Below, piece by piece: positions 13,158 to 34,157 of a DNA stretch of 64,000 nucleotides (within the stretch, counting starts at the first letter, position 1; each line of letters begins with the position of its first letter). The position numbers were made by a program, and so were the translations under genes. Location of the stretch: the NCBI RefSeq assembly GCF_001427785.1, contig NZ_LMHM01000001.1:326716-390715 (forward strand), given 5' to 3'. The notes beneath the pieces are model-generated. The model worked only from the letters and a program-made list of their open reading frames with translations, searched no databases and was not told the DNA's origin. The stretch comes from Lysobacter sp. Root690. Its GTDB lineage: Bacteria > Pseudomonadota > Gammaproteobacteria > Xanthomonadales > Xanthomonadaceae.

Positions 13158-14147
13158 TCAGGCGGCGTCGCGCGCGGCGAACGATTCGGTCACCGCCAGC
13201 GCCTGTTCGATCAGCGACCAGTCCGCGCCGGGCTTGTGCGCGCCTTCGCTGAGGACCTGCCGGAACGCGCGACCGCCGCGCTCGCCATGGAACAGGCCGA
13301 GCATGTGCCGGGTGATGTGCTTGAGGAACACGCCGCGTTCGAGCTGGCTTTCGACGTATGGGCGCAGCGACCGCAACAGTTCGGCGCGGCTGCGCAGTTC
13401 GCCGCCGAACCACTCCGTGTCGAGCCGATGCAGCACATAAGGCTCGTGGTACGCGGCGCGGCCCAGCATCGCGCCGTCGGTGTGCTGCAGATGCGCGGTC
13501 GCTTCTTCCGGCGTGGCGATGCCGCCGTTGACGACCACCTGCAGCGCCGGGCGTTCGAGCTTGAGCCGATACGCCCAGTCGTAGCGCAGCGGCGGCACCT
13601 CGCGGTTTTCCTTCGGCGACAGGCCCTTGAGCCAGGCGTTGCGGGCGTGCACCACGAACATCCGGCAGCCGGCCGCGGCGACCTCGTCGACGAAGGCCAG
13701 GAACACTTCGAAACGATGGTCGTCGTCGACCCCGAGCCGGCACTTGACCGTGACCGGCACATCGCAGGCCTCGACCATCGCCGCGACCGAGGCCGCCACC
13801 AGCGCCGGCTCGCGCATCAGGCAGGCGCCAAAGCGTCCGGCCTGGACCCGGTCGGACGGGCAGCCGCAATTGAGATTGATCTCGTCAAACCCCCACTCGG
13901 CGCCGGTCCGCGCCGCCTGCGCCAGAAAGGCCGGTTCGCTGCCGCCGAGCTGCAACGCGACCGGATGCTCGATCGGATCCATCGCCAGCAAGCGCGCGCG
14001 GTCACCGTGGATGACCGCGTTGGCGTGGACCATCTCGGTGTATAGCCGCGCATGCGGGGCCAGGGTGCGGTGGAAGACGCGGCAGTGCGAGTCGGTCCAA
14101 TCCATCATGGGCGCGACAGAAAGCATAATTTCTTTCTTATTCAACAT
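13158..14147 (-). CDS. dusA: tRNA-dihydrouridine(20/20a) synthase, 5' end remodelled by island
   Basis: FMN enzyme reducing U20/U20a of tRNAs. The family landmarks are SVAPMMDWTDSHCR (N-terminal FMN site), NLNCGCPSDRV with the catalytic Cys, KCRLGVDD, and NGGIATPEEA. The genomic island sits exactly in the VAPMMDW codons, so the first residues are island-encoded (MLNKKEIM in place of the native MIPTPAIPAAQLRL, whose DNA remains at 35536-35628). Possible starts are 14186, 14147 and 14126; I give 14147, and 14126 has a purine-rich AAGAAAG before it. Only the N-terminal tail is changed, so the enzyme is probably functional, with expression now from island DNA. Confidence 0.92.
   Translation of the reverse strand: MLNKKEIMLSVAPMMDWTDSHCRVFHRTLAPHARLYTEMVHANAVIHGDRARLLAMDPIEHPVALQLGGSEPAFLAQAARTGAEWGFDEINLNCGCPSDRVQAGRFGACLMREPALVAASVAAMVEACDVPVTVKCRLGVDDDHRFEVFLAFVDEVAAAGCRMFVVHARNAWLKGLSPKENREVPPLRYDWAYRLKLERPALQVVVNGGIATPEEATAHLQHTDGAMLGRAAYHEPYVLHRLDTEWFGGELRSRAELLRSLRPYVESQLERGVFLKHITRHMLGLFHGERGGRAFRQVLSEGAHKPGADWSLIEQALAVTESFAARDAA
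14096..14117 (-). other. Left attachment site (attL) inside dusA
   Basis: TCCAATCCATCATGGG followed by CGCGAC. It differs at one position from the copy at 35562-35583. On the coding strand it encodes VAPMMDW of DusA, the known target of dusA-specific tyrosine integrases. The left island boundary lies within or just after this repeat. Confidence 0.9.
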
Positions 14148-14292: not shown

Positions 14293-15516
14293 ATGAAGTG
14301 GCGCGCGATGGTGCGGTTGAAGGGCCATCCTACCAAGACCTCGACCTTCCACGGCCGGAAGACGGCAGAGGACTGGGCGCGCGACACGGAGGATGCGCTC
14401 CGCTCCGGCAAGACCTTGCCGGGTCCGAGCCCTACCCTTTCGGCCGTGATCGACCGCTATATCAAGGGGCTACAAACCTTCAAACCGGTGTCCGACACCA
14501 GACTCGGCAATCTCACACGCCGGAAAGAATCGCTCGGTGATCGTAAAGTTGCGAGCCTCACTGGGCAGGATGTCCTCGACCACGCCGCCAAGCGCTGCGA
14601 GGTCATTGGACCTGCAACGATGCAGATCGAGTTGGGGTACCTCGCCGAGACGCTGAAGGCCGCGCGAACTTTTTGGGTTATGACCATCCCAGACATCGTT
14701 GCCGCGGCGCGGCCGACTCCTGTACGCACCGGCATGATCGGAGACCCCTACGAGCGCGACCGGCGTCCGACCGCTGAGGAGTTGAAGAGCCTTGAGGCGT
14801 TCTATCGCTACAACCTCGCGCGGACGCCAATGCGAGATTTGATTCCCTTCGTGATCGACAGCGCAATGCGACTAAGCGAAATCACATCGATTCGCTGGGA
14901 GGACTACCGCCCAGGCAACAAGCCGCTGGTCCTAATCCGAAGCCGGAAAGACCCGAAGAAGAACATCAATCATCAGTGGGTCCGCTCTTGGGACCTTGCG
15001 CCGAGATTATCGATCGCCAGCCGAAGAAGGGTAAGTGCATCTTCCCCTCACAAGCCGGACACCATCGGCTCCAGTTTCCGCCGTGCGTGCCTGCGTCTGG
15101 AAATCGCTGACCTTCCCTTCCACGATTTGCGCCACGAAGGCACATCGCGACTGTTCGAAGCGAATTATGACATCCGGCGGGTCGCCATCGTGACCAGCCA
15201 TCGCGACTGGAAGTTACTGAAGCGCTATACGAATCTGAAGTCCGCTTCACTTCATCCCGAAAAGCCCGTTGCTCTGATCCAGTTCTACCCCTCAAAGAAG
15301 CGGCCTGACATATCGGTCGCGCAGTCGCCTCATGCATGCAGCCTTCATGAGCGGACGACGGGGCTGGCACGATCAGTGCGCGGCGGCCGATTGGAACGGA
15401 TGAAGGAAGTTCACGATGGCGGGATTAGCCTGCCACCGGCCCTTTTTTTGTTCCCGACAATCGTCCTGTGCCGCACACACCAGCTAAGAAGCTTTGGCCA
15501 GCGCCGTACAGTGTGA
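14293..15516 (+). CDS. int: dusA-type tyrosine integrase with an internal out-of-frame segment
   Basis: 407 residues, site-specific recombinase. An N-terminal AP2-like arm-binding region (MKWRAMVRLKGHPTKTSTF) and core-binding domain precede the catalytic domain with Arg193 (AMRLSEI), HDLRHEG (His277, Arg280), His303 (TSHRDW) and Tyr312 (KRYTNL). Residues 231-252 are out of frame. Reading the DNA one base shifted between about 14981 and 15046 restores family-like PLLGPCAEIIDRQPKKGKCI. A one-base loss near 14982 and a one-base gain near 15046 therefore cancel. The C-terminus after LKSASLHP (about 85 residues) is not family-like. Catalytic residues survive, but activity is doubtful. Confidence 0.88.
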   Translation: MKWRAMVRLKGHPTKTSTFHGRKTAEDWARDTEDALRSGKTLPGPSPTLSAVIDRYIKGLQTFKPVSDTRLGNLTRRKESLGDRKVASLTGQDVLDHAAKRCEVIGPATMQIELGYLAETLKAARTFWVMTIPDIVAAARPTPVRTGMIGDPYERDRRPTAEELKSLEAFYRYNLARTPMRDLIPFVIDSAMRLSEITSIRWEDYRPGNKPLVLIRSRKDPKKNINHQWVRSWDLAPRLSIASRRRVSASSPHKPDTIGSSFRRACLRLEIADLPFHDLRHEGTSRLFEANYDIRRVAIVTSHRDWKLLKRYTNLKSASLHPEKPVALIQFYPSKKRPDISVAQSPHACSLHERTTGLARSVRGGRLERMKEVHDGGISLPPALFLFPTIVLCRTHQLRSFGQRRTV

Positions 15517-15661: not shown

Positions 15662-15925
15662 TCAGCCATTTAAATTCGCCTCAATAAGATCGGCTATGTC
15701 ATTGAGCGACGGGTTTTTAGGAAACTGCAACTCCCGAAATTCGATGCCAAACCGCTCTTCAACATCCATCATCAGATCGACCATTATTATCGAGTCGATG
15801 CCGAGTTCGCCTTGAGTCGTCGAAGCACTTACGCTTTCCGGTTTCAAGTCGAACTTGTCCACTATCATGCTCTTCAACTTATCTAGTATCTCGTCCCGCA
15901 GCATAAATAAGCCCCCGTCGTTCAT
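15662..15925 (-). CDS. Acyl carrier protein, island-borne
   Basis: 87 residues. Family layout is complete: helix I (RDEILDKLKSMIVDKFDLK), the phosphopantetheine site GELGIDSIIMVDLMMDVEE with Ser45, and helices III/IV to the end. Ser45 would carry the 4'-phosphopantetheine arm. It is not the housekeeping AcpP, whose motif is DSLDTVELVM; DSIIMVDLMMD is typical of dedicated ACPs in secondary pathways. An alternative start is the ATG at 15904 (MLRDEIL), which would give 80 residues. It lies divergent from and 23 bp away from the RpfC-like gene. With the KAS and RpfF-like genes it probably supplies acyl-ACP for signal synthesis. Confidence 0.9.
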   Translation of the reverse strand: MNDGGLFMLRDEILDKLKSMIVDKFDLKPESVSASTTQGELGIDSIIMVDLMMDVEERFGIEFRELQFPKNPSLNDIADLIEANLNG

Positions 15926-15948
15926 TCAGTGGCAGCAAGGTTAAAGGG

Positions 15949-18033
15949 ATGGATCAGGTAACGCCAGAGCAATTAAAACAGAGTGTACAGGCTCAGTCCT
16001 CGGTCAGGGTCAAACTCGGCGTGCCTGTGGCGCTTGCCACCATCGCTGTCAACTTATTTTCGCAATCTGCCAGCGAGGCTTCCACCTCTGGAATAGGCGT
16101 ACTTGCTGGTTACATATTTTACGCTCTAACCACGTACGTCGTGGCGCGCCATCCAGGCCACCTCTCGTGGCGCAATATAGCGATAGGCACGGCAGCACTC
16201 GATCCCATCATTCTATCCGCCTGGCTGTACTTCGAAGGCGAAGCAGCGATTCTGATAGTCGGTTTTTACCTCTTCACAATACTTGGATTTGGCTTCCGCA
16301 TCGGCCCAAAGATAATGCGGTTCTGCCAAACGGTCGCCATAGGCTGTTTTGGCCTGGTGCTCATGGGCTCTCCAATATGGAGAGATAACCTATTCTTCGG
16401 CCTATCCCACCTGATTCTCCTTCTTATCGTTCCGATGTATGCCGGATCGCTCATGCGCGACTTGCGTGCAGCGAAAGCTGATGCCGAGCGTGAAAGCAAG
16501 GCCAAAACACAGCTACTGGCCAATGTCAGCCACGAGCTGCGCACTCCGCTCACGGGCATCGTGTCTGCCGCGCAGCTATTGGACAGTCACAGCAATACGC
16601 CCGAAGCCAACCGGCTAGCAGCCACCATACTCAAGCTGTCTTCTTCTCTCGACGCTGAGATCAGCCAGCTCTTGGACTTGTCCAAACTTGGCATTCAACC
16701 TGCTGCCGGTCCACCGATCGCGTACGAGCTTCGCACCGTCATCAACACGATCGAAGTGGCGCTGAAAGAGATTGCAGCATCGAAAGGGGTTGAATTAAAG
16801 ACGGAAATTTCACCGGACATCGCTCGACCGGTGCTGGGTCATCCCCATGAATTGACGAGCATCCTCATGAACCTGGCTGGCAATGCCGTCAAGTTCACCC
16901 ACACCGGCTCGGTGACCATTCAAATCAACTTGAAGGCCGCCACGGAGCGCACTTACTCGCTCGCGTTCATCGTCTCCGACACCGGTATCGGCATACCGCT
17001 GGAGCACCAGGAAAAGCTGTTCGAACCGTTCTATAGGATCGAGACCGGCGATCGGCGCCAGTACCGCGGAACCGGATTAGGCACGACCATCGCACGCGAA
17101 CACGTTCGGCGGATGGGCGGTGAGCTTTTGGTTTCCAGTTCCCCTGGCGAAGGCTCCACGTTCTGGTTCGACATCGAACTGCCCATAGCCAGCTTGCCGG
17201 TCGTGCCCGTAGACGACCAGCCACCACCGATCCTTGCTCCGAAGCGCATCCTCGTGGCGGACGACAACGCCCTCAATCTGGAACTGCTACTGCAAATGCT
17301 GGCGCGAGACGGCCACATAGTGACCGCAGCCCACAACGGCAATGATGCGTTGAGCCAACTCGCGCTGGATGACTTCGATGTCGTCATGCTCGATTTCAAC
17401 ATGGATGACCTTGACGGCCTTTCCGTTTTTCAAACCTACGCGATGGGCCGCCTGCATCCCGCACCGACGTTCTTCGTCACTGCCGACACATCAAGTTCGA
17501 CCGCCGCGAAATTGAGCAAGGCGGGTGCGGCCGGCGTGGTGTATAAGCCACTGACGTTCGACAAGCTACGCGGCGCGATCGCTTCCGTCTTTCCGAACGA
17601 GGCCCCGGTCGCCCGGCCCGACGCCACCGATCACGGCGGGACTCGACTGAGCGCTGTTCCTGTCGAGCACATCGATCCGGCGATCTTGGATCTATTGCGC
17701 GAAATCAAAGATCAACCGGAGTTTCTGCATAAGATCATCGGCGATGGCATTGCCGACCTGCGCGATCTTTTCAGCCAACTGTCCGACGCCATCACCGATC
17801 GCGACCTCCATCTGGTCCATCACCGCGCTCACGCCATGCGCGGTGTCGCGCTAAACATCGGAGCAGTCAGATTAGGCGCTCAATGCGAGCGCCTAATGGA
17901 CATCCCCATGGATCAATTGAACGCATCCAGCGAGCGGCTTCATGATGAACTGGTATCAACCTGGAAGGAGGCGCTGCAGGCGCTTGAAGAACTTCGCGCC
18001 CCCTTCGCCGGCACCGCGCACCCGACGGCATGA
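15949..18033 (+). CDS. RpfC-like hybrid sensor histidine kinase
   Basis: 694 residues. The N-terminal input domain has about five transmembrane helices (residues 20-165). It is followed by a kinase with H-box NVSHELRTPLTG (His195), N-box LMNLAGNAVKF and G-boxes DTGIGIP and GTGLGTTI. A receiver domain follows (ILVADDNALNLELL, phosphoacceptor Asp482 in MLDFNM), then a C-terminal HPt domain with His628 (HHRAHAMRGVALNIGA). TM-kinase-receiver-HPt is the architecture of RpfC, the DSF sensor that also restrains RpfF. It is convergent with the RpfF-like gene with only 4 bp between stops. No HD-GYP RpfG partner is present on the island. Substrate sensing is inferred. Confidence 0.88.
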   Translation: MDQVTPEQLKQSVQAQSSVRVKLGVPVALATIAVNLFSQSASEASTSGIGVLAGYIFYALTTYVVARHPGHLSWRNIAIGTAALDPIILSAWLYFEGEAAILIVGFYLFTILGFGFRIGPKIMRFCQTVAIGCFGLVLMGSPIWRDNLFFGLSHLILLLIVPMYAGSLMRDLRAAKADAERESKAKTQLLANVSHELRTPLTGIVSAAQLLDSHSNTPEANRLAATILKLSSSLDAEISQLLDLSKLGIQPAAGPPIAYELRTVINTIEVALKEIAASKGVELKTEISPDIARPVLGHPHELTSILMNLAGNAVKFTHTGSVTIQINLKAATERTYSLAFIVSDTGIGIPLEHQEKLFEPFYRIETGDRRQYRGTGLGTTIAREHVRRMGGELLVSSSPGEGSTFWFDIELPIASLPVVPVDDQPPPILAPKRILVADDNALNLELLLQMLARDGHIVTAAHNGNDALSQLALDDFDVVMLDFNMDDLDGLSVFQTYAMGRLHPAPTFFVTADTSSSTAAKLSKAGAAGVVYKPLTFDKLRGAIASVFPNEAPVARPDATDHGGTRLSAVPVEHIDPAILDLLREIKDQPEFLHKIIGDGIADLRDLFSQLSDAITDRDLHLVHHRAHAMRGVALNIGAVRLGAQCERLMDIPMDQLNASSERLHDELVSTWKEALQALEELRAPFAGTAHPTA

Positions 18034-18037
18034 TCGC

Positions 18038-18934
18038 TTATTTGCCGCCAGCGGCATCTCGCGATTGCATCAGGATCAGCATTTCCATGGTGCGAATCTC
18101 TTCAGCGCTCAGATTCATGGCGGTTTCAACCCAGTCCTCGACGACCCTGACCCCTTCGTCATAGTTGAGCGGAGCCGTCCTGTATCTGCTTGCTTGCACC
18201 TTCAACAAGGCCTTCTGCCTGCGTGAGTGCTCGGCGACATACCTCTCCACGGCACGCTCACCTTCTCCATCGCGGCATAGCTCATCAATGATGCCCATTT
18301 CGTACAGCTCGGCGGCGGAATAAATCCGTTTGTTCGTCATCATCTTCTCGGCCTGCCTCGCACCAACCTTGCTGGCCAACAGCCCCATGGCTCCTGTGCA
18401 GGGAAACAAGCCGAACATGATTTCAGGAAAACCAAACGAGCTCCGCTGCTCGGCGATTACATAGTCGGTGCTCAGCACCATCTCGAATCCACCGCCCAAT
18501 GCCCGACCCTGCACCAGACTGATCGACGTGCTCTCGCCCTTGAGCCGCGTCGACCAACCGTGCATCAGATCGAGGCAGGCCATCGAGTACTGCCTGAGCC
18601 TCTCTTCGTCGCGGGCCGCGATGCAGGAGCGAAAGAACCGCAAGTCGCCGCCAACACTGAAGTAGTCGGGGTGCGTCGACTGGATCACGGTGTACCGGGT
18701 GGGCAACGCAGCCGTCACACCAACGGGCCTGCGGATCGAGTCCAGTACGCTCTGGAATTCACCTACCAACGCGGGAGTGAAGTTTTGAAGACCGGAATTT
18801 TGATCTGGGGAAAACCGCACCCAAAGCACGTTAGACGCCAGCCGCCTATTTTCCGTCACGATGCGACGGGAAAATTGAACGGGCTGGATCGACGATTTGG
18901 GCAGATAACTCTGCAAAACGGGCATGGCGCTCAT
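18038..18934 (-). CDS. RpfF-like DSF synthase (crotonase superfamily)
   Basis: 298 residues. The crotonase-fold core has VQGRALGGGFEMVLSTDYV and FGFPEIMFGLFPCTGAMG. Glu151 and Glu171 match in motif and 20-residue spacing the catalytic pair Glu141/Glu161 of Xanthomonas RpfF, which dehydrates 3-hydroxyacyl-ACP to the cis-2-enoyl chain and releases the DSF fatty acid. Ordinary enoyl-CoA hydratases share the fold, but the N-terminal extension, PEI.F.LFP block and pairing with an RpfC-like sensor point to RpfF. A GAGGAT site precedes the ATG at 18934; 18925 is an alternative. It follows the KAS gene by 27 bp, so the two form an operon. Confidence 0.9.
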   Translation of the reverse strand: MSAMPVLQSYLPKSSIQPVQFSRRIVTENRRLASNVLWVRFSPDQNSGLQNFTPALVGEFQSVLDSIRRPVGVTAALPTRYTVIQSTHPDYFSVGGDLRFFRSCIAARDEERLRQYSMACLDLMHGWSTRLKGESTSISLVQGRALGGGFEMVLSTDYVIAEQRSSFGFPEIMFGLFPCTGAMGLLASKVGARQAEKMMTNKRIYSAAELYEMGIIDELCRDGEGERAVERYVAEHSRRQKALLKVQASRYRTAPLNYDEGVRVVEDWVETAMNLSAEEIRTMEMLILMQSRDAAGGK

Positions 18935-18961
18935 AATTAAATCCTCGGGAGGTTGGCGTGG

Positions 18962-20206
18962 TTACATCGAAAGGCTGCGCTCGGTGCCTAGCACCAGAGC
19001 AGCATTTGTTCCACCAAACCCGCAAGAGAAGCTAACTGCCAAGTCAATTCTGCAATCTGTGCGCGGAAGCTCTCCTACGTGATTTAGGCTACAACGTTCA
19101 TCAACGACTCCAATGTTGCCGCTCGCCGGCAACAACGACTCGTTCATTGCAACTACGGTGATAAGACATTCCATTGCGCTGGCCGCGCCGAGCAAATGTC
19201 CATGGACAGATTTGGTCGAACTGACAGCCGCTGAGGCCGGACCATCACCGAAGACCCCCCTTATCGCCGCCGCTTCTATTACATCGCCGCCTTCCGTAGC
19301 CGTGGCATGTGCATTTATATATCCCACCTCTTCCGCTTCGACTCCGGCGTCCTCTAACGCCGATTGCAAACATTCGATCTGGCCGGCACTATGCGGCATT
19401 CCGATGTGATACGCGTCGCATGAGACTCCGTAGCCGCGTACATATCCGTGAATTTTCGCTCCGCGTCGTTCGGCCAAATCGGCGGCTTCCAGCACGAGAA
19501 AAGCGGCGCCTTCGCCAAGCACCAATCCGCTGCGGTCCTTTGAGAACGGTCTGCAGGAATGACCGGGATCGTCGATACGCGGTTTCGACAGAGCGCGCGT
19601 GCCATCAAACACAGCAATCAGGGCCGCGCTCAGTGGCGCTTCCGCTCCCCCCGTCACGGCCACATCAAGATACCCATCGGCAATGGCTCTCATCGCCTCA
19701 CCGATGGCCACTCCCGATGAGGCGCACGCGCTTGAGTGGGTGATAACCGGCCCGCGAATCTTGTGGCGGATCGCAATTTGAGCGGCGCCGCTATTGGCCA
19801 TGATGGACATCGCGGTGAACGGCCTGGATTTATGCTTCCCGTTTAACAGCGATTCCTCAAACCAATTTTGAAGGGACGCCATCCCGCCATTGACGTTTCC
19901 ATAGTAAACGCCTGCCTTAGAGCCAAAGCTTTCAAAAGTACCCAGCCCAGCGTCAGTGATCGCGTCACCGGCGGCGATGACCGCCATTTCATGGCATCTA
20001 TCCAGAAACGGCCGCTCGATATAACTGAATCGTTCCGAGAACGTCCCTTTCACGGTGCCCGCTACGTGTTGGCTCGGCAATCTAGGAACCGTGATCAGCT
20101 CGATCCCAGTCGTGCCGACACGTAACGCGCCTGCCACTTCGGAGACCGACAGACCGAGCGGACTGAGCACGCCCATACCTGTAATAGCAACTTGCCGCCT
20201 TTTCAT
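18962..20206 (-). CDS. Beta-ketoacyl-ACP synthase, KAS II type
   Basis: 414 residues. The thiolase-fold condensing enzyme has the Cys-His-His set: Cys161 (HSSACASSG), His300 (INAHATATEGGD) and His335 (STKSVHGHLLGA, with Lys332). It opens MKRRQVAITGMGVLSPLGL. It condenses malonyl-ACP with acyl-ACP, lengthening the chain by two carbons. I start at the ATG at 20206, which has a strong AGGGGGG site; an upstream ATG gives a tail with no similarity. Being directly upstream of and transcribed with the RpfF-like gene, and near a dedicated ACP, it probably tailors the acyl chain of the signal. This is inference; a role in an unrelated lipid is possible. Confidence 0.92.
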   Translation of the reverse strand: MKRRQVAITGMGVLSPLGLSVSEVAGALRVGTTGIELITVPRLPSQHVAGTVKGTFSERFSYIERPFLDRCHEMAVIAAGDAITDAGLGTFESFGSKAGVYYGNVNGGMASLQNWFEESLLNGKHKSRPFTAMSIMANSGAAQIAIRHKIRGPVITHSSACASSGVAIGEAMRAIADGYLDVAVTGGAEAPLSAALIAVFDGTRALSKPRIDDPGHSCRPFSKDRSGLVLGEGAAFLVLEAADLAERRGAKIHGYVRGYGVSCDAYHIGMPHSAGQIECLQSALEDAGVEAEEVGYINAHATATEGGDVIEAAAIRGVFGDGPASAAVSSTKSVHGHLLGAASAMECLITVVAMNESLLPASGNIGVVDERCSLNHVGELPRTDCRIDLAVSFSCGFGGTNAALVLGTERSLSM

Positions 20207-20393
20207 CGTGGCCCCCCTGTGAGCCGACCGTTGCGACGGCCAGGGCGCATGAAGCACCATCCTCAGGCCGCCGCCGTGCCAATTACGTCACAGTAGGCGC
20301 CCTTTTCGCCGTTTTGCAACCGTGAATCGGCCCAAACCGACCGCCGATAAAACCGGGTAGCCTTTCTCGTCTGCCTCTTCCGCGAGACCATCC

Positions 20394-21236
20394 TTGTCTG
20401 GCCCCACCCGCCCCGCGCCTAACGGCATTACGACCCTTCAGACATCAATCGCCAGGCATCGGCGCGATGTTCAGCCGATTGCCGGCGTCGTTCTGTCACC
20501 AGGCTCCGCAGAGCGGCACCGTATTCAGGAAATTCTGCGGCGCGCTGGGCACACGATCTTCTCCACGGGCGACTCCGAGGACGCACTCGACCTCTATGCC
20601 GATGAGCAGCCCACGCTATTCATGATTGTGGCTGACGAGGGCCAGGACGCAGACGTGCAGGACGCAGTCGATGCGTTGAAGCAGCTGAGAGTGCTCCGTG
20701 CGGGTTGGCGAAAAGAAGTAAAAATCATGGTGATCGGAGACGGCGTACCAGGAGAGTTCGTTGACCTAAGGCTCGGACCCGGAGTCACCGCGGAAGCTTT
20801 ACTGACCTCAGTGGAGACGTTGTTCCGCCGATCACGAGAATCGGCAACGATGCACACTGAAACGCAGGGCTCTGACGTCCAGGCCTCTCATGAGCACCTC
20901 GCCGATATTGCGGCAAGTTTGGGAGTGGACTTTGCCGCTGAATACGTTCGATGCAGCCTCAGCGACATACAACGACAAGCACGGATGCTGGAAGTCGAGT
21001 TGTTCCGCAAAAACCCCTCAGCCATCAGATCGTCGCTGCATGCCATCCAAGGCCTAGCGCTCAATGTTGATGCCACAGAGCTAAACACCTCATGCCGCGA
21101 GTGGCGCGCAAAAACGGACGATGAACTTTTGCACTCGACCGTTCTGATTGCCCAGTCGATTTGGAACATGCTTCCATCGGCCCGTGAACGAGCTAAGCAG
21201 GCACTTTCCAAGCTCGGCCACGGCGTAGACGTTTAG
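20394..21236 (+). CDS. Degenerate receiver-HPt phosphotransfer protein
   Basis: 280 residues. Residues about 30-145 align with a receiver fold (GVVLSPGSAERHRIQEILRR), but the usual double Asp after the first strand is Ser-Pro, so it is unlikely to be phosphorylated normally. The C-terminal 110 residues resemble the HPt domain of the adjacent RpfC-like kinase. HAIQGLALNVDATEL here corresponds to HAMRGVALNIGAVRL there, and the phosphorylatable His is kept. It may relay phosphate in the DSF pathway, or be a duplicated tail of RpfC. The start is TTG at 20394 (no better start upstream); it diverges from the KAS gene across 187 bp. Confidence 0.7.
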   Translation: MSGPTRPAPNGITTLQTSIARHRRDVQPIAGVVLSPGSAERHRIQEILRRAGHTIFSTGDSEDALDLYADEQPTLFMIVADEGQDADVQDAVDALKQLRVLRAGWRKEVKIMVIGDGVPGEFVDLRLGPGVTAEALLTSVETLFRRSRESATMHTETQGSDVQASHEHLADIAASLGVDFAAEYVRCSLSDIQRQARMLEVELFRKNPSAIRSSLHAIQGLALNVDATELNTSCREWRAKTDDELLHSTVLIAQSIWNMLPSARERAKQALSKLGHGVDV

Positions 21237-22328: not shown

Positions 22329-22613
22329 TCATAGCGATCGCCTATCCAACAGAGAGACAGCGAGTTGGCTGTTGATTCGCCGCCACTCGTCCGCGGCCTT
22401 GGCCTTCTGCTTGTCTAGGTAGTCGGCAAGCTGCGTCGCATCCACAATCCATGGAGACTTCTGGCTGCCGACGCGGTACACAGGCACAGGTAGTGCATGT
22501 CGGCAGGCGCGCTTCGCCGCCTCCGCCGGCGTCATCCCGAACAAGTGAGAGCACCGATCCAAAGGAATCTGTGCGGTTTCGTACTCGGCCATCAACAAGA
22601 GCAGAGTATTCAC
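22329..22613 (-). CDS. PrtN-family activator
   Basis: 94 residues. It matches the pyocin activator PrtN family: MNTLLLLMAEYETAQIPLDR at the start, then LFGMTPAEAAKRACRHALPVPVYRVGSQKSPWIVDATQLADYLDKQ. In Pseudomonas PrtN switches on pyocin genes. On integrative islands, PrtN-like small proteins sit near integrases and probably regulate island functions or excision. Its ATG overlaps the stop of the upstream winged-helix gene (ATGA), making it the last gene of a three-gene coupled operon. No pyocin structural genes are nearby, apart from one phage tail gene. Confidence 0.85.
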   Translation of the reverse strand: MNTLLLLMAEYETAQIPLDRCSHLFGMTPAEAAKRACRHALPVPVYRVGSQKSPWIVDATQLADYLDKQKAKAADEWRRINSQLAVSLLDRRSL

Positions 22614-24344: not shown

Positions 24345-24530
24345 TCATTGACGACGCAGGTCATGGTTGATCTTGTTGATCACGTCACGCAGCGGGTAGC
24401 CGCTGAGCATGCGGTTCTGCACGCCCTTGAACACGCTGGAGATGACGCGGCGCTCTCCGCCATTGGTCTCGCGGTCGGCTAGGGAGCGCAAGCAGGCGAA
24501 CACGCCCTGACGGAGCTTGCGGTCCAGACC
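24345..24530 (-). pseudogene. hsdM fragment (type I restriction methyltransferase)
   Basis: About 58 codons on the minus strand read KLRQGVFACLRSLADRETNG, then RVISSVFKGVQNRMLSGYPLRDVINKIN, then a stop. This is the N-terminal helical region typical of HsdM, well before the SAM-binding and NPPF motifs, which are absent. The sequence breaks off and meets the hsdS remnant. A deletion therefore removed the rest of hsdM and most of hsdS. Confidence 0.7.
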
Positions 24531-24661
24531 TGACGCTGACCTGACCGACCACGAATGCGCCGAAGTGAAAATCCGTTTCCGCCGAGCGGAGAAGAACGCA
24601 TTACACCGTGGCCCGAGCCGAGATTCGATCGCGATTCGTGGGACAACGTCGGCCCGCAGCC

Positions 24662-25123
24662 GTGAGCGATCTTGAGCAATGGGAAACGTGGGCGCCGCCG
24701 CTGATTGTGGCGCTGGCCCCGTCTGCGCGGCGCGTGTTGCTACAAGCGATAGCCGTCGATCTGCGACGGTCACAACAGCGGTGTGTCGTGCAGCAACGCA
24801 ACCCGGACCGCAACGCGTATGCGCCGCGTAAGCCGCAGCGTGAAGACCGCGCCGGCCGCATCCGTCGCGGTGCCATGTTCCGCCGCATCCGCGTGGCCCG
24901 GCATCTGCGAGCGACAAGCGACGCGGACGGCTTGCGCGTCGGTTACGCCGGGCGCGTCGCGCGCATCGCCCGCGCCCACCAAGACGGCGGGACCGACCAC
25001 GTGTCATGCAGCGGCGCTCTTGTCCGCTATGCCCGCCGCCAACTACTGGGATTCAGCGACACTGATTGGGAACGGATTCGCGTCTGCCTTCTCAATTATC
25101 TGACGCGTCAGGGCAAGACATAG
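24662..25123 (+). CDS. Phage virion morphogenesis (tail completion, gpS-like) protein
   Basis: 153 residues from the GTG at 24662. It resembles the P2 gpS / phage virion morphogenesis family. It has an N-terminal helix (SDLEQWETWAPPLIVAL), an ARRVLLQAIAVDLRRSQQRC segment, QRNPDRNAYAPRKPQ, VARIARAHQ and a C-terminal LLGFSDTDWERIRVCLLNYL. These proteins help complete contractile tails. The open frame extends upstream to 24608 with no similarity. No other tail or head gene is nearby, so this is an isolated leftover of a prophage or tailocin, probably not functional on its own. GC-rich codons set it apart from the AT-richer gene that follows. Confidence 0.72.
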   Translation: MSDLEQWETWAPPLIVALAPSARRVLLQAIAVDLRRSQQRCVVQQRNPDRNAYAPRKPQREDRAGRIRRGAMFRRIRVARHLRATSDADGLRVGYAGRVARIARAHQDGGTDHVSCSGALVRYARRQLLGFSDTDWERIRVCLLNYLTRQGKT

Positions 25124-25257
25124 GCTATCCACCGAAATTCGCTAGCTTCGACTTTTGAAAGTTGGCTGTATCAGGGCACAACCACAACCAATCCTGCCGA
25201 TTGTTGCTAGATTTAGGTGCCGGCGCATACTCAGCCGAACCGAGAACCTTACGGAAG

Positions 25258-27543
25258 ATGCACGACTTCAAAGCACTTTCACCCCCAGACTTCGAGCACC
25301 TTACCCGGGACCTAATTGGCAAGGATCTAGCCCTGAGCTTTGAAGGTTTCTGTGCAGGTCCTGATGACGGGATAGATGGTCGCCATGCTGCAGCGGGGAA
25401 AACCACTATCTTGCAAGCCAAGCACTATGCAGGATCTTCATTCTCTAAGCTGAAGTCGGCCATGAAGCAGGAGCGGCCAGCAATCGATCGCCTAGCGCCC
25501 GATCGCTACCTGTTGGCAACGTCTTGTCCGCTTACTCCAGCCAACAAGGCGGAGCTCGCGAAGATCATTGGCGGAAAGCTGCAACAACTCGCCGACATCC
25601 TGGGGCCAGAAGATCTCAACGCGCTACTCAGAAAATACCCGAACATTGAGAGAAGCCACGTCAAACTTTGGCTATCCAGCGCCATGGTTCTGGACCGAAT
25701 TGTTCGCTCCGCACATTACGATTTCGCCGCATTCACGCGAGAAGAGATGCTAGAGAAGGTGAAGATTTATGCGCCAAACTCCAGCTTTGAAAGATCTTTC
25801 GAGAAGCTGGAGAAACACCACATCCTAATCATTTCTGGCCCGCCCGGCGTGGGCAAAACCACCCTGGCTGAGATGCTTGCTTATAGCTATATCGGTGACA
25901 ACTGGGAATTAATACCGATTCGTAACCTGGACGACGGCTTCGGCGCATTGAATGATACAAAGAACCGCGTTTACTACTTCGACGATTTCCTCGGGCAGAT
26001 CTCGCTAGACCCAAAAACACTTGCAACAAAAGACGCTGAGCTAGCCAAGTTCATTCGAAAAGTTCGAGCCACGAGAAACGCACGATTCATCTTAACCACA
26101 CGCGCTTACATTTTTGAAGAGGCCAGGACTTTATCGGAATACTTGGGAGACCCAAGCTTAAACGTCAGCAAGTACGTGCTGGACGTTGGCGTCTACACTC
26201 GCAAGATTAAGGCACTCATTCTTTACAATCACCTACTCGCCCGGAACACGCCCCAACAGTTCGTAGACGCGTTAATTCTTAGCGGGAAGTTAAAAAGCAT
26301 TATTGACCACAAAAACTACAATCCACGCGTAATCGAATGGATGACTGATGTTCAGCGCATCCAGGATATCGTGCCAACTCAGTACGCAGAATCCTTCCTT
26401 CACTCATTGGCCAACCCCAAGAAGCTCTGGGAAAAAGCCTTTGACAAGCACATCAAGCCACACTGCCAACATCTGTTGATGGCGTTGTTCTTCATGCCCG
26501 AACACGGCGCAGACATAGATGAACTGCGGTTGGCATTTGACGCACTTCACTCCGTACTATGCGAGAGACACTTTCTGTCCTCTACGCCAAAAGACTTCAA
26601 CGAATCGATCAGAATTTTGGAAGGTGGTTTTATTGCCCTAACCAACCACAAAGTCTCGCTCATAAACCCCTCACTTCGCGACTACTTATCTACTTACTTG
26701 AACGACCTTAGCTTGCTCCTTGCCATAGCGTCAACTGCAAAATTGGCCGTTTGGGCAAAAAATTTATGGAAGCACGCAAAATATATAAAGTCAAATGAAG
26801 AAGAACAAAAGCAACTCGCATTTGCTTTAGTTTCGGTAGCCAAGAAATTCCGAAGCTTCCCTGTCTGGAAACGCAGCCGCCAAAGTCACAATGGGCTCGA
26901 GTCACACGATATCTCAAGTGGCGAAAGACTTGGCTTGCTCCTTGAGTGGTGGCGTGTTACCGAATCGAAGACGCTTGCAGGCGTGGCGCTGGCATTTGCC
27001 AAAAGCCCAGTGGAATCTTTCGAAGCTTGGAACGATGTGGAAGAGATTGTAAAAATCTTTGATGATCTAGCGGAAGGTGACTTCGATAGATTCGATGGAT
27101 ACAGCAAGCTAGTGACTGAACTTGAGGGTATTCTGACGAGTTTGCTCTTAGAAGATTTAAACGGTGACCAGTTAGGCCAATTGACCAGAGCAGTAAAGTC
27201 ATCTCATCACCATATAAGCGCGCAAGCCAAGATCGACCTAGTCAAAGCGATCCGACATCAAGTTAAGCAGGCCGGAAAAATAAGCTTCGACTCTGAATCC
27301 GTGTCAGATCTGTCTGATTTCGAGGATGCGTTGAGAGACCTCGCCCCACGCGCAAGCATTCCCAAAGCAGACCTCGACTACGCGATTGACATACTCCGCG
27401 AACGGCAGCAGGACATCGAGGAGAGGATGACGAAGACTCCCGCGCCGTCCATTTCACGAGTGCGCCGGAAAGAGCCGGACGATTTCAGCGACAACGAGTT
27501 GAGCAATCTTTTCAACGCTCTACTGTCTCGACCAGAGGAGTAG
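25258..27543 (+). CDS. Mrr-like nuclease fused to an nSTAND3-type NTPase
   Basis: 761 residues from the ATG at 25258 (MHDFKALSPPDFEHLTRDLI). The N-terminal restriction-endonuclease-like domain has Asp40 (GPDDGID) and Gln53-Ala-Lys55 (ILQAKHY), the Mrr-type catalytic pattern. The STAND NTPase follows, with Walker A GPPGVGKTT (from residue 194) and Walker B YYFDDF (Asp242-Asp243). A long helical C-terminal half would be the sensor. Proteins of this build are anti-phage sensors that unleash a nuclease on recognition. The frame opens 32 codons earlier, but the Mrr domain starts here. Codon use is markedly AT-richer than the chromosome, indicating recent acquisition. Confidence 0.85.
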   Translation: MHDFKALSPPDFEHLTRDLIGKDLALSFEGFCAGPDDGIDGRHAAAGKTTILQAKHYAGSSFSKLKSAMKQERPAIDRLAPDRYLLATSCPLTPANKAELAKIIGGKLQQLADILGPEDLNALLRKYPNIERSHVKLWLSSAMVLDRIVRSAHYDFAAFTREEMLEKVKIYAPNSSFERSFEKLEKHHILIISGPPGVGKTTLAEMLAYSYIGDNWELIPIRNLDDGFGALNDTKNRVYYFDDFLGQISLDPKTLATKDAELAKFIRKVRATRNARFILTTRAYIFEEARTLSEYLGDPSLNVSKYVLDVGVYTRKIKALILYNHLLARNTPQQFVDALILSGKLKSIIDHKNYNPRVIEWMTDVQRIQDIVPTQYAESFLHSLANPKKLWEKAFDKHIKPHCQHLLMALFFMPEHGADIDELRLAFDALHSVLCERHFLSSTPKDFNESIRILEGGFIALTNHKVSLINPSLRDYLSTYLNDLSLLLAIASTAKLAVWAKNLWKHAKYIKSNEEEQKQLAFALVSVAKKFRSFPVWKRSRQSHNGLESHDISSGERLGLLLEWWRVTESKTLAGVALAFAKSPVESFEAWNDVEEIVKIFDDLAEGDFDRFDGYSKLVTELEGILTSLLLEDLNGDQLGQLTRAVKSSHHHISAQAKIDLVKAIRHQVKQAGKISFDSESVSDLSDFEDALRDLAPRASIPKADLDYAIDILRERQQDIEERMTKTPAPSISRVRRKEPDDFSDNELSNLFNALLSRPEE

Positions 27544-27808: not shown

Positions 27809-28747
27809 ATGGACATATTTCACGTCATCATCGACACCAGCATTTTGACCCGCACTCCTTTTAGAAGCGGAGGCTTTGATCGGCTCTTGCTTCGCGTGCA
27901 GCAGGGTCTAATTAAGCTCTATATTCCGCATATTGTTGTAGAAGAGCGGCGCTCGCAACTACTGTCCGAATACAGCAAACACGCAGAGGCAGTAAAAGCG
28001 GCACTACAACAGATGCAGCGCGGCCATATGGCGATGCTCCTAGAAGGCTTACCGGCGGTTGAATGCGTAGTTCCAACCCGTGAAGAAGTAGATAGAAATT
28101 CGCGTTCGGTTTTCCAACGGTACTTGGCGGACAACCGCGTTAACGTACTACCTTTCACCTTCGACCATGCATCAAAGGCGCTAGAACGGTACATGCTTGG
28201 AGCCCCGCCGTTCAACCCCAATGAAAGCCGCACTGGCGAGCGCAAGCACATTCCTGACTCTTGGATTTTGGAAGCCGCCCTCGAAATAAAAATGAAACCC
28301 GGTCGGCACTGCGTTCTGGTCGACGATGCGCGATTTGAATCGGCATTGAAGAATGCGGAGTTTGAGGTCTTCAAAGATCTCGACACACTTGACTCTGAAA
28401 TCGAAACAGCAACCGCTGTAGTGCCGATCCTCGGAATTAACCCAGCCCCGCCGAGCAGTAGCCAGCCTGCACCACTCAACAAACTTCGAGGCGTAGCATT
28501 TAAAGATGTAGATGTTATTGTCTTGGGCATAAACGAAGCATTGAGCAACCCGAGTAAAGAGAAGCTTTTCGGGACCCTGGCGGACATGGGTATCGAGCGA
28601 ACGATTGCAGAGCATGAAGCGAGAACATTAGTTCTATCAGGCGTCTTGACAGATACAGGCAGCCATCTCGTGCCGACGAACACAGAATTGGCCCGCAGCG
28701 CGGCAAGCGAACAAGTGGTAATAGACCTGCTACTGAGAGTAATCTGA
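27809..28747 (+). CDS. PIN-domain protein, coupled to the gene downstream
   Basis: 312 residues. The N-terminal half resembles a PIN RNase-like domain. MDIFHVIIDTSILTRTPF begins with a beta strand ending in Asp9. ERKHIPDSWILEAALEI supplies a further acidic position, and HCVLVDDARFESAL resembles the last acidic motif of PIN nucleases. The C-terminal third (from residue 235) is a separate helical region. The stop overlaps the ATG of the next gene (TGATG), so the two proteins are made together and probably act together. PIN domains cut RNA; as an effector in a defence pair this would degrade RNA after triggering. That role is inference. Confidence 0.7.
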   Translation: MDIFHVIIDTSILTRTPFRSGGFDRLLLRVQQGLIKLYIPHIVVEERRSQLLSEYSKHAEAVKAALQQMQRGHMAMLLEGLPAVECVVPTREEVDRNSRSVFQRYLADNRVNVLPFTFDHASKALERYMLGAPPFNPNESRTGERKHIPDSWILEAALEIKMKPGRHCVLVDDARFESALKNAEFEVFKDLDTLDSEIETATAVVPILGINPAPPSSSQPAPLNKLRGVAFKDVDVIVLGINEALSNPSKEKLFGTLADMGIERTIAEHEARTLVLSGVLTDTGSHLVPTNTELARSAASEQVVIDLLLRVI

Positions 28748-31164
28748 TGATGGACCTTGAACTCCGCTTGTCTGCGCTGAGGAATTTGGTACCCGTCAAG
28801 ACTGACGAAGTAGAACAGCGGCTACTAGCAGAACTAACGCGCGTAGAGGGCGTGCTGCAGAATGGCGTGGACTACGATGAACTGTCAGCCGCCTTGAAGG
28901 CTCTAGCCGTACTAGCGCCTAGATTTCACGCACGCGTGATACCGATGCTATCTGACTTCGTGCGGTCTGTTCTGAATCGTACTTTAGAGCAGGGTGGGGA
29001 ATCTATTCCAACATCGTGGATCAAGTATCGATCCGCCAGCCATTTGGTTCGCGAGGCAATCGACGTTCCTCACGCCGTGCGCTTCGTGCACACAGCGCCT
29101 CTATTGGACTTTCTGCTGGATCTGTGGAAGCTGGACGATGAAGAGGTTCAGAATAAAGCAGCGCGGATGCTGGAAGCTATAGCCGAGTTCGATCTGAATC
29201 TCTTTTATGGTCAACAAGGCCTCGGCGCAAGACCACAAGCCGAGATCGTGGCGTATTTCGGTGCATTTGACGATCAATCCCTCGTCATGCACGCTGATAT
29301 TATTTTAAAGATGTTGCGTAAAGTGTTATCTCCATCGATCGAGGGCCACACCTGGAACTACAACAGCATGACCATCAGCCGCAGCGGCGTTAGGGCTTCT
29401 AGCGGTATAGCAGACATGCGCAGGTCTGCCATCTTCTTACTGAAACGCATGTATGCTCTCGACGATAACGTTAGCTACCGAAAGCGGCTTCTGAGCACCC
29501 TAGGCGAAGCGACACGCCGAGAACAGCCGAGCAATGATGCCGAAACGGCTGCAATGTTCGACCGAGACGCGGTGGATATCCTGGACTTCCTACGCTGTCA
29601 AATTCCTTCTGAGCAACTACCGCTTGTTCAAGCCATAGAGCACGACGCCTACTGGAACTACTACCACGCTGCTTCGAATGTGATTTCTGAAGCCGCAATC
29701 CACGTACGAGATTCCATTGAGGCGCGCGGCGATTATCAGATCTACAAGCAATTGATCGGCTTTGAAGGGATACATGGCTCCTGGGAGGAGCTGAAACGCT
29801 CTGAGGCAGCTTGGGAGTACGGAGACGATAAGCGCCTGCGCGCCGCCGAGCAATATGTTGACGGCATTAATGACGATAACCACATCGTCTGGCGCGACCG
29901 TATTCTAGAGTTCTCAAAAACCCGATCAGACGACTTGGCAACCTTCCCTGTCTACTACGAGTTTCTGAAATCTGTCGGCCAGAAGCGACCAGATCTTGCG
30001 TTGGAGCTAGTGCAAGACCATCAGGAGGTCATGGAACCATTTTTGATTGCGTTATTGCGCGGTCTTTGGTCTAGCGAGCGCAATGCGGAAGTTGAGGCGA
30101 TCGCACAGCAATGGCTCACTAACCAGACCCACTTGGCTGATTTAGCAAAATCTCTAAATGTAGATTATCGCCCGAGATTTGATCTTCTAATCAAAGTGAT
30201 CTCGGAGGCTGACCGTGTTGGGGATACGATCGCCATTATTCATGCGATGGGCGTGGCAGCTCGCCAGTACGCGCTAGGGCATACAGAGGCAAAGTCAGTA
30301 TTCATGCAGGGCCTGCGCGAAGTAGCCAAGCGTGAGGATGCCCGCTGGGCAAATGTCATTTGGTTTAACCGAGACTTCGCGAAGCTCATTGAATCGATGC
30401 AGCCTGCCGAGCGGGCTGAGATAATGGCCAGCATGACACCTCTAACAAAAATCGACTATCAAGCCGAAGAAATTCTGTATGCCATTGGCCGAAGCGACCC
30501 GCCAGCGCTCGTTAGCTTTCTGATGACGCGAATACGCGAAGAGCATATCCGTGATGAACAGAGGCGCGAAGCCGCGACAGATGAAGAAAAGGGTTTCGAA
30601 GCAATACCCGATAGCCTACACAAGTTGAACAAGGTGCTGGTGGAGATGCCGGGGCCTCTACTGTCTGAAATACGTGCCAATTTTGATGCGGGCAGCTCAA
30701 GCATGTTCCCATACAGTAGCAGTGCGCGCTTGGTTATGGCTGTATTCCCAGCCTTTGAGAAGCCACTGCAAGACCAACTGTTGACCTATATCCGAACTGG
30801 GGGAACTGAGGACATCGAATTCGCAATCGCGATTCTTCGCGCATATGGAGGTACCGCACCTATCCTTCCGCTTTGCAAGGAGATCATCAAAGCCGTCCCA
30901 GAAAAGTCTAACGCCTGGAAAGGAATAGCAGCTTCTTTTCAGTCGACTGGCGTCGTGTCTGGCGAATACGGCATGGTCAACGCATTTGAAGCTAAACGCG
31001 TCGAGATTTCGTCTTGGCTGGAGGATGACAACGCGAAGGTGCGAGCGTTCGCGGAGTGGCTCACGGAGAACCTGAGTCATTTAATTGTGCAAGAGCGCCA
31101 GCGCGCGGACGAAGATTTAGCCCTGCGCAAGCACAGATACGGAATCGGCACGAACGACACTTGA
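28747..31164 (+). CDS. Large helical-repeat protein of unknown function
   Basis: 805 residues, no recognised catalytic motif. Sequence is almost entirely alpha-helical with repeated Leu/Ala-rich helices (LRNLVPVKTDEVEQRLLAEL, then AAALKALAVLAPRF-like units), suggesting a HEAT- or ARM-type solenoid. No signal peptide or membrane segment is evident. It starts within the stop of the PIN gene, so stoichiometric production is likely. Large solenoid partners often act as sensors or scaffolds for nuclease effectors, which is the most economical guess here. Low GC matches the neighbouring PIN and nSTAND genes. Confidence 0.65.
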   Translation: MMDLELRLSALRNLVPVKTDEVEQRLLAELTRVEGVLQNGVDYDELSAALKALAVLAPRFHARVIPMLSDFVRSVLNRTLEQGGESIPTSWIKYRSASHLVREAIDVPHAVRFVHTAPLLDFLLDLWKLDDEEVQNKAARMLEAIAEFDLNLFYGQQGLGARPQAEIVAYFGAFDDQSLVMHADIILKMLRKVLSPSIEGHTWNYNSMTISRSGVRASSGIADMRRSAIFLLKRMYALDDNVSYRKRLLSTLGEATRREQPSNDAETAAMFDRDAVDILDFLRCQIPSEQLPLVQAIEHDAYWNYYHAASNVISEAAIHVRDSIEARGDYQIYKQLIGFEGIHGSWEELKRSEAAWEYGDDKRLRAAEQYVDGINDDNHIVWRDRILEFSKTRSDDLATFPVYYEFLKSVGQKRPDLALELVQDHQEVMEPFLIALLRGLWSSERNAEVEAIAQQWLTNQTHLADLAKSLNVDYRPRFDLLIKVISEADRVGDTIAIIHAMGVAARQYALGHTEAKSVFMQGLREVAKREDARWANVIWFNRDFAKLIESMQPAERAEIMASMTPLTKIDYQAEEILYAIGRSDPPALVSFLMTRIREEHIRDEQRREAATDEEKGFEAIPDSLHKLNKVLVEMPGPLLSEIRANFDAGSSSMFPYSSSARLVMAVFPAFEKPLQDQLLTYIRTGGTEDIEFAIAILRAYGGTAPILPLCKEIIKAVPEKSNAWKGIAASFQSTGVVSGEYGMVNAFEAKRVEISSWLEDDNAKVRAFAEWLTENLSHLIVQERQRADEDLALRKHRYGIGTNDT

Positions 31165-33130: not shown

Positions 33131-33173
33131 ATAACAATGTTAGCGTGCTGAAACTTTGTTACTGTGGCCTTGC

Positions 33174-34157
33174 ATGGAATACCACGGCATCCAGCGCTAC
33201 CTGCAGGAAGTCCTCGCAACCAGCGTCCGCATCCGGCCGTGGGACGACGCACAGCAACTGCCGTTCTATCTCCGCAACGCCTACGACTTCGCCGAAGTCG
33301 CCCTGTTCGACACTCCTTGCTTACTGGTCATCGCGGACCGCCCTCTCGACATCGAAGCCGACATCCGCCGCCACCTCGACGTGGTGGCGAAGCACGCGCC
33401 CCAGGATGTGCTCCCGGTTTACGTCACCACGGCACTGGCGTCCTATGAGCGCAAGCGGCTAATCGCCCAAGGCGTTCCCTTCATCGTGCCCGGCAACCAG
33501 TTGTTCCTACCGCCGCTGGGGATGGACCTGCGCGAGTATTTCCGCGAGCGCCCGGACAACACCAGCAATGCGTTGAGCCCAGCCACACAGGCACTGCTGT
33601 TCACTGCCCTACTGCGCCCATGGAAGGACGAAATCCACCCGGAACGATTAAACGAGCGATTCGGCTACACGCCGATGACCGTGTCGCGTGCCACCCGGGA
33701 ACTGCAGGCCGCCGGGCTGGCCAGGACATTCGCGGTCGGACGCGAGAAATGGCTGCGGTTCGACCAGCGACCGGAAGCCGTCTGGCAGCGCGCGCAATCT
33801 TGGTTGCGCAGCCCGGTACGCAGGAGCGTCTGGGCCGTGCATGCCGTCGACCCAATCAATGACGCTCCGCTCGCCGGGTTGAGCGCACTGGCCGCACAGT
33901 CCGCGTTGGCGGACTCGGCCTATCCGGAGCGCGCTATGTCTAGTGAGCGCTGGAAGCATGCGCAGCACAAGGGTCTGCTGCTCCTGCACGCACCGGAGCC
34001 AGGCGCGACCCGCTGGCAGATCTGGCGCTACGATCCCAGCCACCTCGCCGACCACGGCTTGGTTGATCCATTGTCGCTGATCGTCAGTCTTCGCGAGGAC
34101 ACCGACGACCGCGTACAGCAAGCCGCCGAGCAACTGGAGGCTAAGCTGCCATGGTGA
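33174..34157 (+). CDS. HTH protein, probable antitoxin partner of the nucleotidyltransferase
   Basis: 327 residues from the ATG at 33174 (MEYHGIQRYLQEVL). The first 110 residues are an alpha/beta region. Residues about 145-190 form a winged helix (HPERLNERFGYTPMTVSRAT, RELQAAGLARTFAVGREKWL). The C-terminal part resembles the tail of AbiEi/COG5340-like proteins. It overlaps the nucleotidyltransferase gene by 7 bp. This order, DNA-binding protein then nucleotidyltransferase, is that of type IV toxin-antitoxin modules of the AbiE type, in which the HTH protein represses the operon and counteracts the toxin. Family assignment is by context and HTH pattern. Confidence 0.65.
   Translation: MEYHGIQRYLQEVLATSVRIRPWDDAQQLPFYLRNAYDFAEVALFDTPCLLVIADRPLDIEADIRRHLDVVAKHAPQDVLPVYVTTALASYERKRLIAQGVPFIVPGNQLFLPPLGMDLREYFRERPDNTSNALSPATQALLFTALLRPWKDEIHPERLNERFGYTPMTVSRATRELQAAGLARTFAVGREKWLRFDQRPEAVWQRAQSWLRSPVRRSVWAVHAVDPINDAPLAGLSALAAQSALADSAYPERAMSSERWKHAQHKGLLLLHAPEPGATRWQIWRYDPSHLADHGLVDPLSLIVSLREDTDDRVQQAAEQLEAKLPW

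Follow-up and report, generated by a model that had tools for sequence, protein, structure and literature searches.

A stretch of 64,000 nucleotides from Lysobacter sp. Root690 (contig NZ_LMHM01000001.1, positions 326,716 to 390,715; hereafter the window) contains a cassette of genes for an acyl carrier protein (ACP), a hybrid sensor kinase (HK2), a crotonase of the RpfF family (RpfF2), a ketoacyl-ACP synthase (KAS) and a receiver-HPt protein. With moderate confidence, the cassette is regarded as an alternative quorum-sensing module of the diffusible signal factor (DSF) type, which takes the place of canonical RpfF and RpfC and probably feeds RpfG of the host. The observations behind this reading are the gene content and linkage of the cassette, the empty canonical slot in the host core rpf locus, the presence of RpfG, the distinct signatures of the cassette proteins and the location on a genomic island.

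Organization of the Cassette

The five open reading frames (ORFs) are confirmed at 15662-21236. The ACP gene (15662-15925, minus strand; Pfam PP-binding, 43.1 bits) and the HK2 gene (15949-18033, plus strand) are divergent, with 23 bp separating the gene starts, and HK2 is convergent with the RpfF2 gene (18038-18934, minus strand), with 4 bp separating the gene ends. The KAS gene (18962-20260, minus strand) precedes the RpfF2 gene, with which it shares the strand, by a gap of 27 bp; its start is more likely 20206, which is the start of the listed ORF in the copy carried by a sister genome (G022; the window genome is G000), the second RpfF2 copy of the genus. No ketoreductase or dehydratase was found among the five genes by Pfam and ORF inspection of the cassette.

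The remaining gene (20394-21236, plus strand) encodes a degenerate receiver and HPt-like protein which is considered accessory. A first-pass annotation, made from the DNA letters alone, had included it as a degenerate receiver-HPt protein. That description is only weakly borne out: HPt scores 15.7 bits, below the cut-off, and no REC match was obtained in the Pfam scan. A relative was seen only in G022, where it is truncated, with no match at the other cassette loci scanned; the homology of the G022 cassette to the window stops inside this gene, and the fold model is of low confidence (mean predicted local distance difference test score 46). This protein was therefore rejected as a part of the conserved module.

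RpfF2 as a Member of the RpfF Family

The best solved relative of RpfF2 is RpfF (3m6m; E 9e-45), and its score against PRK08788 is 269.8 bits (cut-off 177). In a phylogenetic tree, RpfF2 and RpfF are split from three enoyl-CoA hydratases of the same genome at 100/100, and thus RpfF2 clusters with RpfF and not with ordinary enoyl-CoA hydratases. The first-pass annotation had proposed an RpfF-like synthase with Glu151 and Glu171 as a catalytic pair, and this assignment is upheld: the two residues align with the Glu pair of RpfF, are kept in 27/27 RpfF2s including that of the window, and are also present in all 42 canonical or other RpfFs compared. Same-genome duplicates were removed before every residue or motif count reported here.

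Around the catalytic pair, RpfF2 has a signature of its own. In all 27 RpfF2s, GR precedes the ALGGG motif and the second Glu is followed by FPCTG, whereas the 42 canonical or other RpfFs have FPGMG after the second Glu and mostly G(D/N) before ALGGG (L040, L042, L071 and L072 were dropped from the canonical rows in this comparison). The NCBIfam RpfF equivalog model was considered as a further sign of a separate family, as RpfF2 scores 178 bits against a cut-off of 550 and three other RpfF2s score 176-198. However, the one canonical Lysobacter RpfF tested also falls short (346 bits compared with 550). This score therefore does not discriminate, and the shortfall was rejected as proof of a separate family.

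KAS and ACP as Conserved Parts of the Cassette

Both KAS and ACP belong to the conserved portion of the cassette. The KAS is FabF-like (371 bits, below the equivalog cut-off of 494), and the ACP likewise misses its housekeeping equivalog cut-off. The Cys-His-His residues are kept in 25/25 cassette KASs, counted without L034 (a fragment) and L038, and the attachment Ser in 24/24 cassette ACPs extracted, the window included in both counts. The nearest other KAS of the host genome is 38% identical to the cassette KAS, which is thus not the sole FabF-like enzyme of the host.

The coupling of KAS and a private ACP to RpfF, as first proposed from the window alone, extends across the family. KAS adjoins RpfF2 in 19/19 Lysobacteraceae loci, window included, and ACP is present in 18/19, the contig of the remaining one ending first. 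At two loci (L105 and L106), KAS, RpfF2 and ACP are kept without HK2, as if they were a single synthesis unit, and canonical RpfC is encoded elsewhere in both genomes (L135 and L134, respectively). At canonical rpfF loci, no KAS or ACP match was found in 6/6 scanned (L071, L072 and L131-L134) at E 1e-5, a threshold that a very diverged ACP could escape.

Crotonase-fold enzymes have many activities. The cassette includes neither a ketoreductase nor a dehydratase gene, and both ACP and KAS lie below the housekeeping equivalog cut-offs; these features would suit a pathway in which KAS, ACP and RpfF2 make another acyl product, such as a keto or hydroxy acid or an acyl-modified metabolite, and HK2 senses a non-quorum cue. 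This explanation is judged improbable, as RpfF2 groups with RpfFs apart from the three hydratases and the cassette fills the rpfC-rpfF slot adjoining rpfG in eight genomes (see below).

The HK2 Sensor Kinase

In HK2, the HisKA, HATPase, REC and HPt domains all score above the Pfam cut-offs and a hydrophobic input region is present in a simple hydropathy scan, in agreement with the RpfC-type domain architecture that the first-pass annotation had described. HK2 was found in 16/19 Lysobacteraceae cassette loci (at L101 as a partial match), and is missing at L105, L106 and L023 (where the contig ends). HK2s form one side of a branch in the kinase tree with full support in the Shimodaira-Hasegawa-like approximate likelihood-ratio test (100), and their link to RpfC is weakly resolved.

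The N-terminal sensor of HK2 differs from that of RpfC. RpfC residues R15, D17, S18, E19 and Q22 are reported to be essential for DSF sensing (PMC5391125). The corresponding motif (R-x-D-S-E-x-x-Q) is present in 11/11 full-length RpfCs and in 0/22 HK2s, partial kinases of <691 aa (RpfC) or <600 aa (HK2) being left out. Most of the 22 HK2s have instead AQ-x3-R close to the first membrane segment; one of the 22, L035, has a late start because of a contig end. Between HK2 and RpfC, identity averages 22% for the sensor, 41% for the ATPase domain, 30% for REC and 24.5% for HPt. The different sensor motif and the different active-site signature of RpfF2 suggest a distinct signal.

A rival scheme would have the module make ordinary DSF-family signals, with KAS and ACP raising supply or setting chain length and with RpfF2 and HK2 being merely diverged forms of RpfF and RpfC. 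The convergent synthase-kinase layout and the domains are the same as those of rpfF/rpfC, the catalytic Glu pair is kept, and canonical RpfF is reported to accept several acyl-ACPs of 8-14 carbons (PMC4542539). Canonical RpfF and RpfC themselves diverge fast, being 55% and 69% identical, respectively, between two congeners, G038 (L071) and G028 (L072), in which RpfG is 96% identical. This scheme is nonetheless considered unlikely, because KAS and ACP stay linked to RpfF2 yet have no match at the six canonical rpfF loci scanned, the DSF-sensing residues are absent from HK2s, and the replacement of FPGMG by FPCTG is fixed in all 27 RpfF2s.

The Host Core rpf Locus

The first-pass annotation had noted that no RpfG is present. 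This is correct for the island, which has no RpfG gene of its own, but not for the genome: RpfG is encoded on contig C16, where the core rpf locus has the order acnA - small gene - rpfB - rpfG - lysS - prfB, and the cassette is on contig C1. The rpfB and rpfG matches are ~370 bp apart, and neither rpfF nor rpfC is found at this locus. Thus, the canonical arrangement, in which rpfG adjoins rpfC together with rpfF and rpfB, is not seen in the window genome; the congeners G028 and G038 carry rpfB-rpfF-rpfC-rpfG at the core slot. The canonical RpfF/RpfC pair also seems to diversify or to be exchanged fast, when G038 is compared with G028.

RpfF2 is the sole RpfF-like protein of the host genome, the next match (54.8 bits) being enoyl-CoA hydratase-like. 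The first-pass annotation had envisaged a tailored mobile signal distinct from the DSF of the host. The tailored and mobile aspects of that idea stand, but an addition beside a host DSF is not supported, as there is no other RpfF and core rpfF and rpfC are missing. It had also named, as a finding that would speak against it, that these genes make up the sole core rpf locus of the host, and this is half the case: RpfF2 is the only RpfF, and rpfG and rpfB remain in the core locus.

In the sister genome G022, a single reading frame of the rpfG-rpfB gap retains RLFKQRLSNRPDSEHGRASMR, a relic of the N-terminal part of RpfC, its DSF-sensor motif included. Among 2.7 million translated residues from the examined loci and the window, the pattern R[PAE]DSEH was found 20 times, each time at an RpfC N-terminus or in the G022 relic (several loci overlap, so these are not independent). 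This indicates that the G022 lineage formerly had canonical rpfC at the rpfG-rpfB gap. The window genome has a weaker trace of the relic in its own gap, and the RpfG protein is identical in G000 and G022. From the alignable gap, we infer that the window genome shares the loss history of G022; the host thus appears to have lost canonical rpfF and rpfC.

Distribution of the Cassette

RpfF-like proteins were surveyed in the genus and the family with a match threshold of E 1e-20. Each of the 20 genomes of the genus has exactly one RpfF-like match: 18 have only the canonical type and two only RpfF2, with no genome having both or none. The 18 canonical-type RpfFs are 33-36% identical to RpfF2, and the RpfF2 of G022 is 93% identical to the window copy. 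In the family, with scoring confined to the first six candidates of each genome, an RpfF-like match was found in 311 of 395 genomes. RpfF2 is present in 19/395 genomes from 11 genera (306-658 bits; next match 175); a second, canonical-like RpfF was found in six of these and not in the other 13, for 10 of which all candidates were scored. An RpfF-like match, taken as canonical without individual inspection, was found in 292 of the other 376 genomes.

A search for the same gene set elsewhere, as the first-pass annotation had proposed, revealed the cassette in 18 further Lysobacteraceae and at eight mostly betaproteobacterial loci. RpfG is present in 19/19 cassette-bearing family genomes. In eight of these the cassette adjoins rpfG in place of rpfC-rpfF, and rpfB is on the other side of the cassette in seven (L021, L022, L026, L027, L028, L101 and L103), the contig of the eighth (L023) ending after RpfF2. 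In one genome (L025) the cassette is in the core locus beside canonical rpfC-rpfF. In the others the cassette is elsewhere: core rpfF and rpfC are missing in three (the window genome, G022 and G280), core rpfF is missing and rpfC present in two (G266 and G063, the latter with rpfC as two separate matches), and canonical genes are at the core locus in five (G205, G350, G192, G376 and G364). In G364, the contig ends after rpfC and the canonical RpfF match is on another contig.

At the mostly betaproteobacterial loci, KAS is present in 8/8 (partial at L034, and ~3.5 kb away beyond HK2 at L036) and ACP in 6/8, the other two being short contigs. An RpfG-like gene (41-46% identity) is present at four of the eight, with weaker partial matches at two more. 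Matches exist among 72,556 plasmid and 50,697 phage records, none of which reaches at least 60% identity, and none of five viral contigs matching a pattern encodes a relative. On large plasmids of Methylobacterium and Sphingomonas (L136 and L140), an RpfF-like gene is convergent with a gene for an EAL-domain protein. An Escherichia coli plasmid (L137; NZ_CP060058.1) carries a gene for an RpfF-like crotonase, 31% identical to RpfF2, that lies downstream of genes for an ATP-binding cassette transporter, an FtsX-like permease and a lipoprotein-sorting protein.

The dusA Island and Mobility of the Cassette

The cassette sits on an integrated dusA island. An attachment repeat at the dusA 5' end (14092-14120) matches at 26 of 29 positions a direct repeat at the far island end (35558-35586), and a tyrosine integrase gene (14293-15516, plus strand; Pfam Phage_integrase, 48.8 bits) is located between the two. 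GC content is 56.4% inside the island, compared with 68.9% and 66.6% in the flanks. Of the 19 remaining genomes of the genus, seven were searched for an empty site. The dusA-side homology stops at the repeat in all seven (at window position 14123 in six and 14120 in one), and in five (G022, G023, G024, G036 and G038) the right flank of the window directly adjoins the repeat, which represents the empty site. These features bear out the first-pass annotation, which had placed the cassette inside such an island. In G028 (L156) and G033 (L155), different DNA follows the dusA repeat within the 1.5 kb examined, perhaps other islands at the same site.

Between G000 and G022, the synonymous divergence (dS) is 0.45-0.67 for the cassette and 0.08-0.21 for five genes of the rpf locus, and the ratio of nonsynonymous to synonymous divergence (dN/dS) of 0.05-0.12 indicates selection on all four cassette genes. 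Mobility of the cassette is supported by the island, the spread of RpfF2 over 11 genera and the high cassette dS. Two further candidates were set aside. A possible integrase remnant beside the G022 cassette allows no conclusion, as the homology begins in the last 62 nt of the ORF, beyond the Pfam domain, and when the window genome was searched for a vacant site corresponding to the G022 cassette, just one 325-bp match without synteny was obtained.

The window cassette shares its island with the integrase and a candidate defense gene. It might accordingly be cargo that serves the island, with excision, transfer or defense controlled by the density of carriers. This is very improbable: the G022 copy is chromosomal and away from dusA, nine of the 18 other family copies lie in the core rpf locus, and no match to the window integrase or DusA was found in the flanks of these 18 copies scanned.

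Some other genes of the island were noted as well. The product of an ORF at 25162-27543 (plus strand) is an nSTAND3 NTPase (163.6 bits) whose N-terminal part weakly matches a restriction endonuclease, and its best PADLOC match is the candidate system PDC-S73 (460 bits). It is followed at 27809-31164 (plus strand) by genes for a PIN_12-domain protein and an 805-aa protein without Pfam match; together with the nSTAND3 gene, these two may make a defense stretch of the right half of the island. Two adjacent ORFs at 33156-34909 (plus strand) have no Pfam match, and we take this pair to resemble an AbiE-type toxin-antitoxin pair. A PrtN-like pyocin activator gene (PF11112, 58.6 bits) is located at 22329-22613 (minus strand). 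At 24345-25007 (minus strand), the C-terminus of an ORF weakly matches type I methyltransferase profiles (33 bits), perhaps as a remnant.

A Model for the Proposed Replacement Module

DSF-family signals are reported to be made of intermediates that arise in the cycle of ordinary fatty-acid elongation, and RpfF acts as dehydratase and thioesterase on 3-hydroxyacyl-ACP (PMC4542539). In the proposed module, KAS and the private ACP would build a particular acyl-ACP, the keto group of which would probably be reduced by host enzymes. By analogy with RpfF, RpfF2 would then dehydrate this intermediate and cleave the thioester, releasing a fatty-acid signal. HK2, with its sensor unlike that of RpfC, would detect this signal and pass phosphate via REC and HPt to RpfG encoded at the core locus. 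In relatives, RpfG is a cyclic di-GMP phosphodiesterase. The enzymology, the identity of the signal, the phosphotransfer and the order of gain and loss are all put forward here as inferred rather than observed, and the step from HK2 to RpfG is the weakest of the mechanism. In this host, canonical rpfF-rpfC would have been lost, and the module rides the dusA island; in other lineages it occupies the core slot.

Several points weigh against a replacement. In the RpfF tree, support for the separation of RpfF2 from canonical and other RpfFs is only 81/81 and the root is unsure, and production of a cis-2 fatty acid by RpfF2 is putative. No RpfF-like match was found at the threshold in 84/395 family genomes; with neither system in these, absence of RpfF is not rare. 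Both systems are kept in 6/19 cassette genomes, and the association of RpfF2 with lack of canonical RpfF in a Fisher test (p 4e-5) ignores relatedness. The RpfF2 tree requires at least two changes for cassette position and at least five for retention of canonical RpfF, and G000 and G022 may reflect a single event. The lower GC content at third codon positions of the cassette (0.60-0.72 compared with 0.87-0.93) may inflate its dS.

The partnership with RpfG is subject to similar caution. Because REC and HPt of HK2 average just 30% and 24.5% identity to those of RpfC, RpfG may not be the partner of HK2. In L. enzymogenes, RpfG is reported to interact with three hybrid kinases, HtsH1-3 (PMC8463545), and the host has three hybrid kinases within 9 kb (C18:468481-477318; 31-32% identity to HK2). 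RpfG could thus be retained for other kinases. The C18 kinases are possibly counterparts of HtsH1-3.

Beyond the replacement itself, an extension is offered more tentatively, in which the cassettes act as pherotype cartridges. A mobile unit would swap the synthase, the KAS and ACP supply and the sensor, displace rpfF-rpfC and plug into an unchanged RpfG, giving a new fatty-acid signal in one step while the regulon is kept. The replacement record suggests that bacteria can swap their fatty-acid signal language like a cartridge. With its own KAS and ACP, its differing sensor and such a replacement record, a conserved unit of this kind would illustrate how fatty-acid signals come to differ and how bacteria change from one signaling group to another. 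Hosts with RpfG but without canonical RpfF/RpfC, and hosts with both systems, are directly testable natural cases.

Comparison with Known Systems

The closest known system is the canonical Rpf/DSF system of Xanthomonadales. Like the cassette, it has an RpfF-family synthase with the Glu pair and, convergent with it, a hybrid kinase that combines a membrane input with REC and HPt. RpfG is present alongside both, and in eight genomes the cassette occupies the chromosomal slot of the canonical pair. Unlike the canonical system, the cassette adds KAS and ACP, its RpfF2 is 33-43% identical to the RpfF-like matches listed, its kinase is without the R-x-D-S-E-x-x-Q motif, and GR(A) and FPCTG stand where G(D/N) and FPGMG mostly stand in canonical RpfFs.

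RpfR is a PAS-GGDEF-EAL protein. It is the partner of the Burkholderia DSF (BDSF) synthase of the Bcam0581 type, whereas that of RpfF2 is a hybrid histidine kinase. The BDSF synthase is also of the RpfF family and is reported to act as dehydratase and thioesterase on acyl-ACP (PMC4542539), but in the tree the B. cenocepacia homolog falls apart from RpfF2, on a long branch and with an unsure place.

Among the literature matches listed, no title or start of an abstract describes the cassette, or RpfF on islands or beside KAS or ACP, which does not prove absence from print. The dusA-integrated genomic islands reported previously resemble that of the window in having imperfect direct repeats, an integrase located at the 5' end of dusA and an empty site in relatives; unlike it, they show no quorum-sensing cargo in the available part of that report (PMC4482086). 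For the rpf cluster of Xanthomonas axonopodis pv. citri, the available part of the report mentions no KAS, ACP or relocation, unlike the cassette (PMC2585010). As with the cassette in the core slot, however, highly distinct RpfF and RpfC are found there within a conserved rpf cluster, and lateral substitution has been proposed (PMC2585010).

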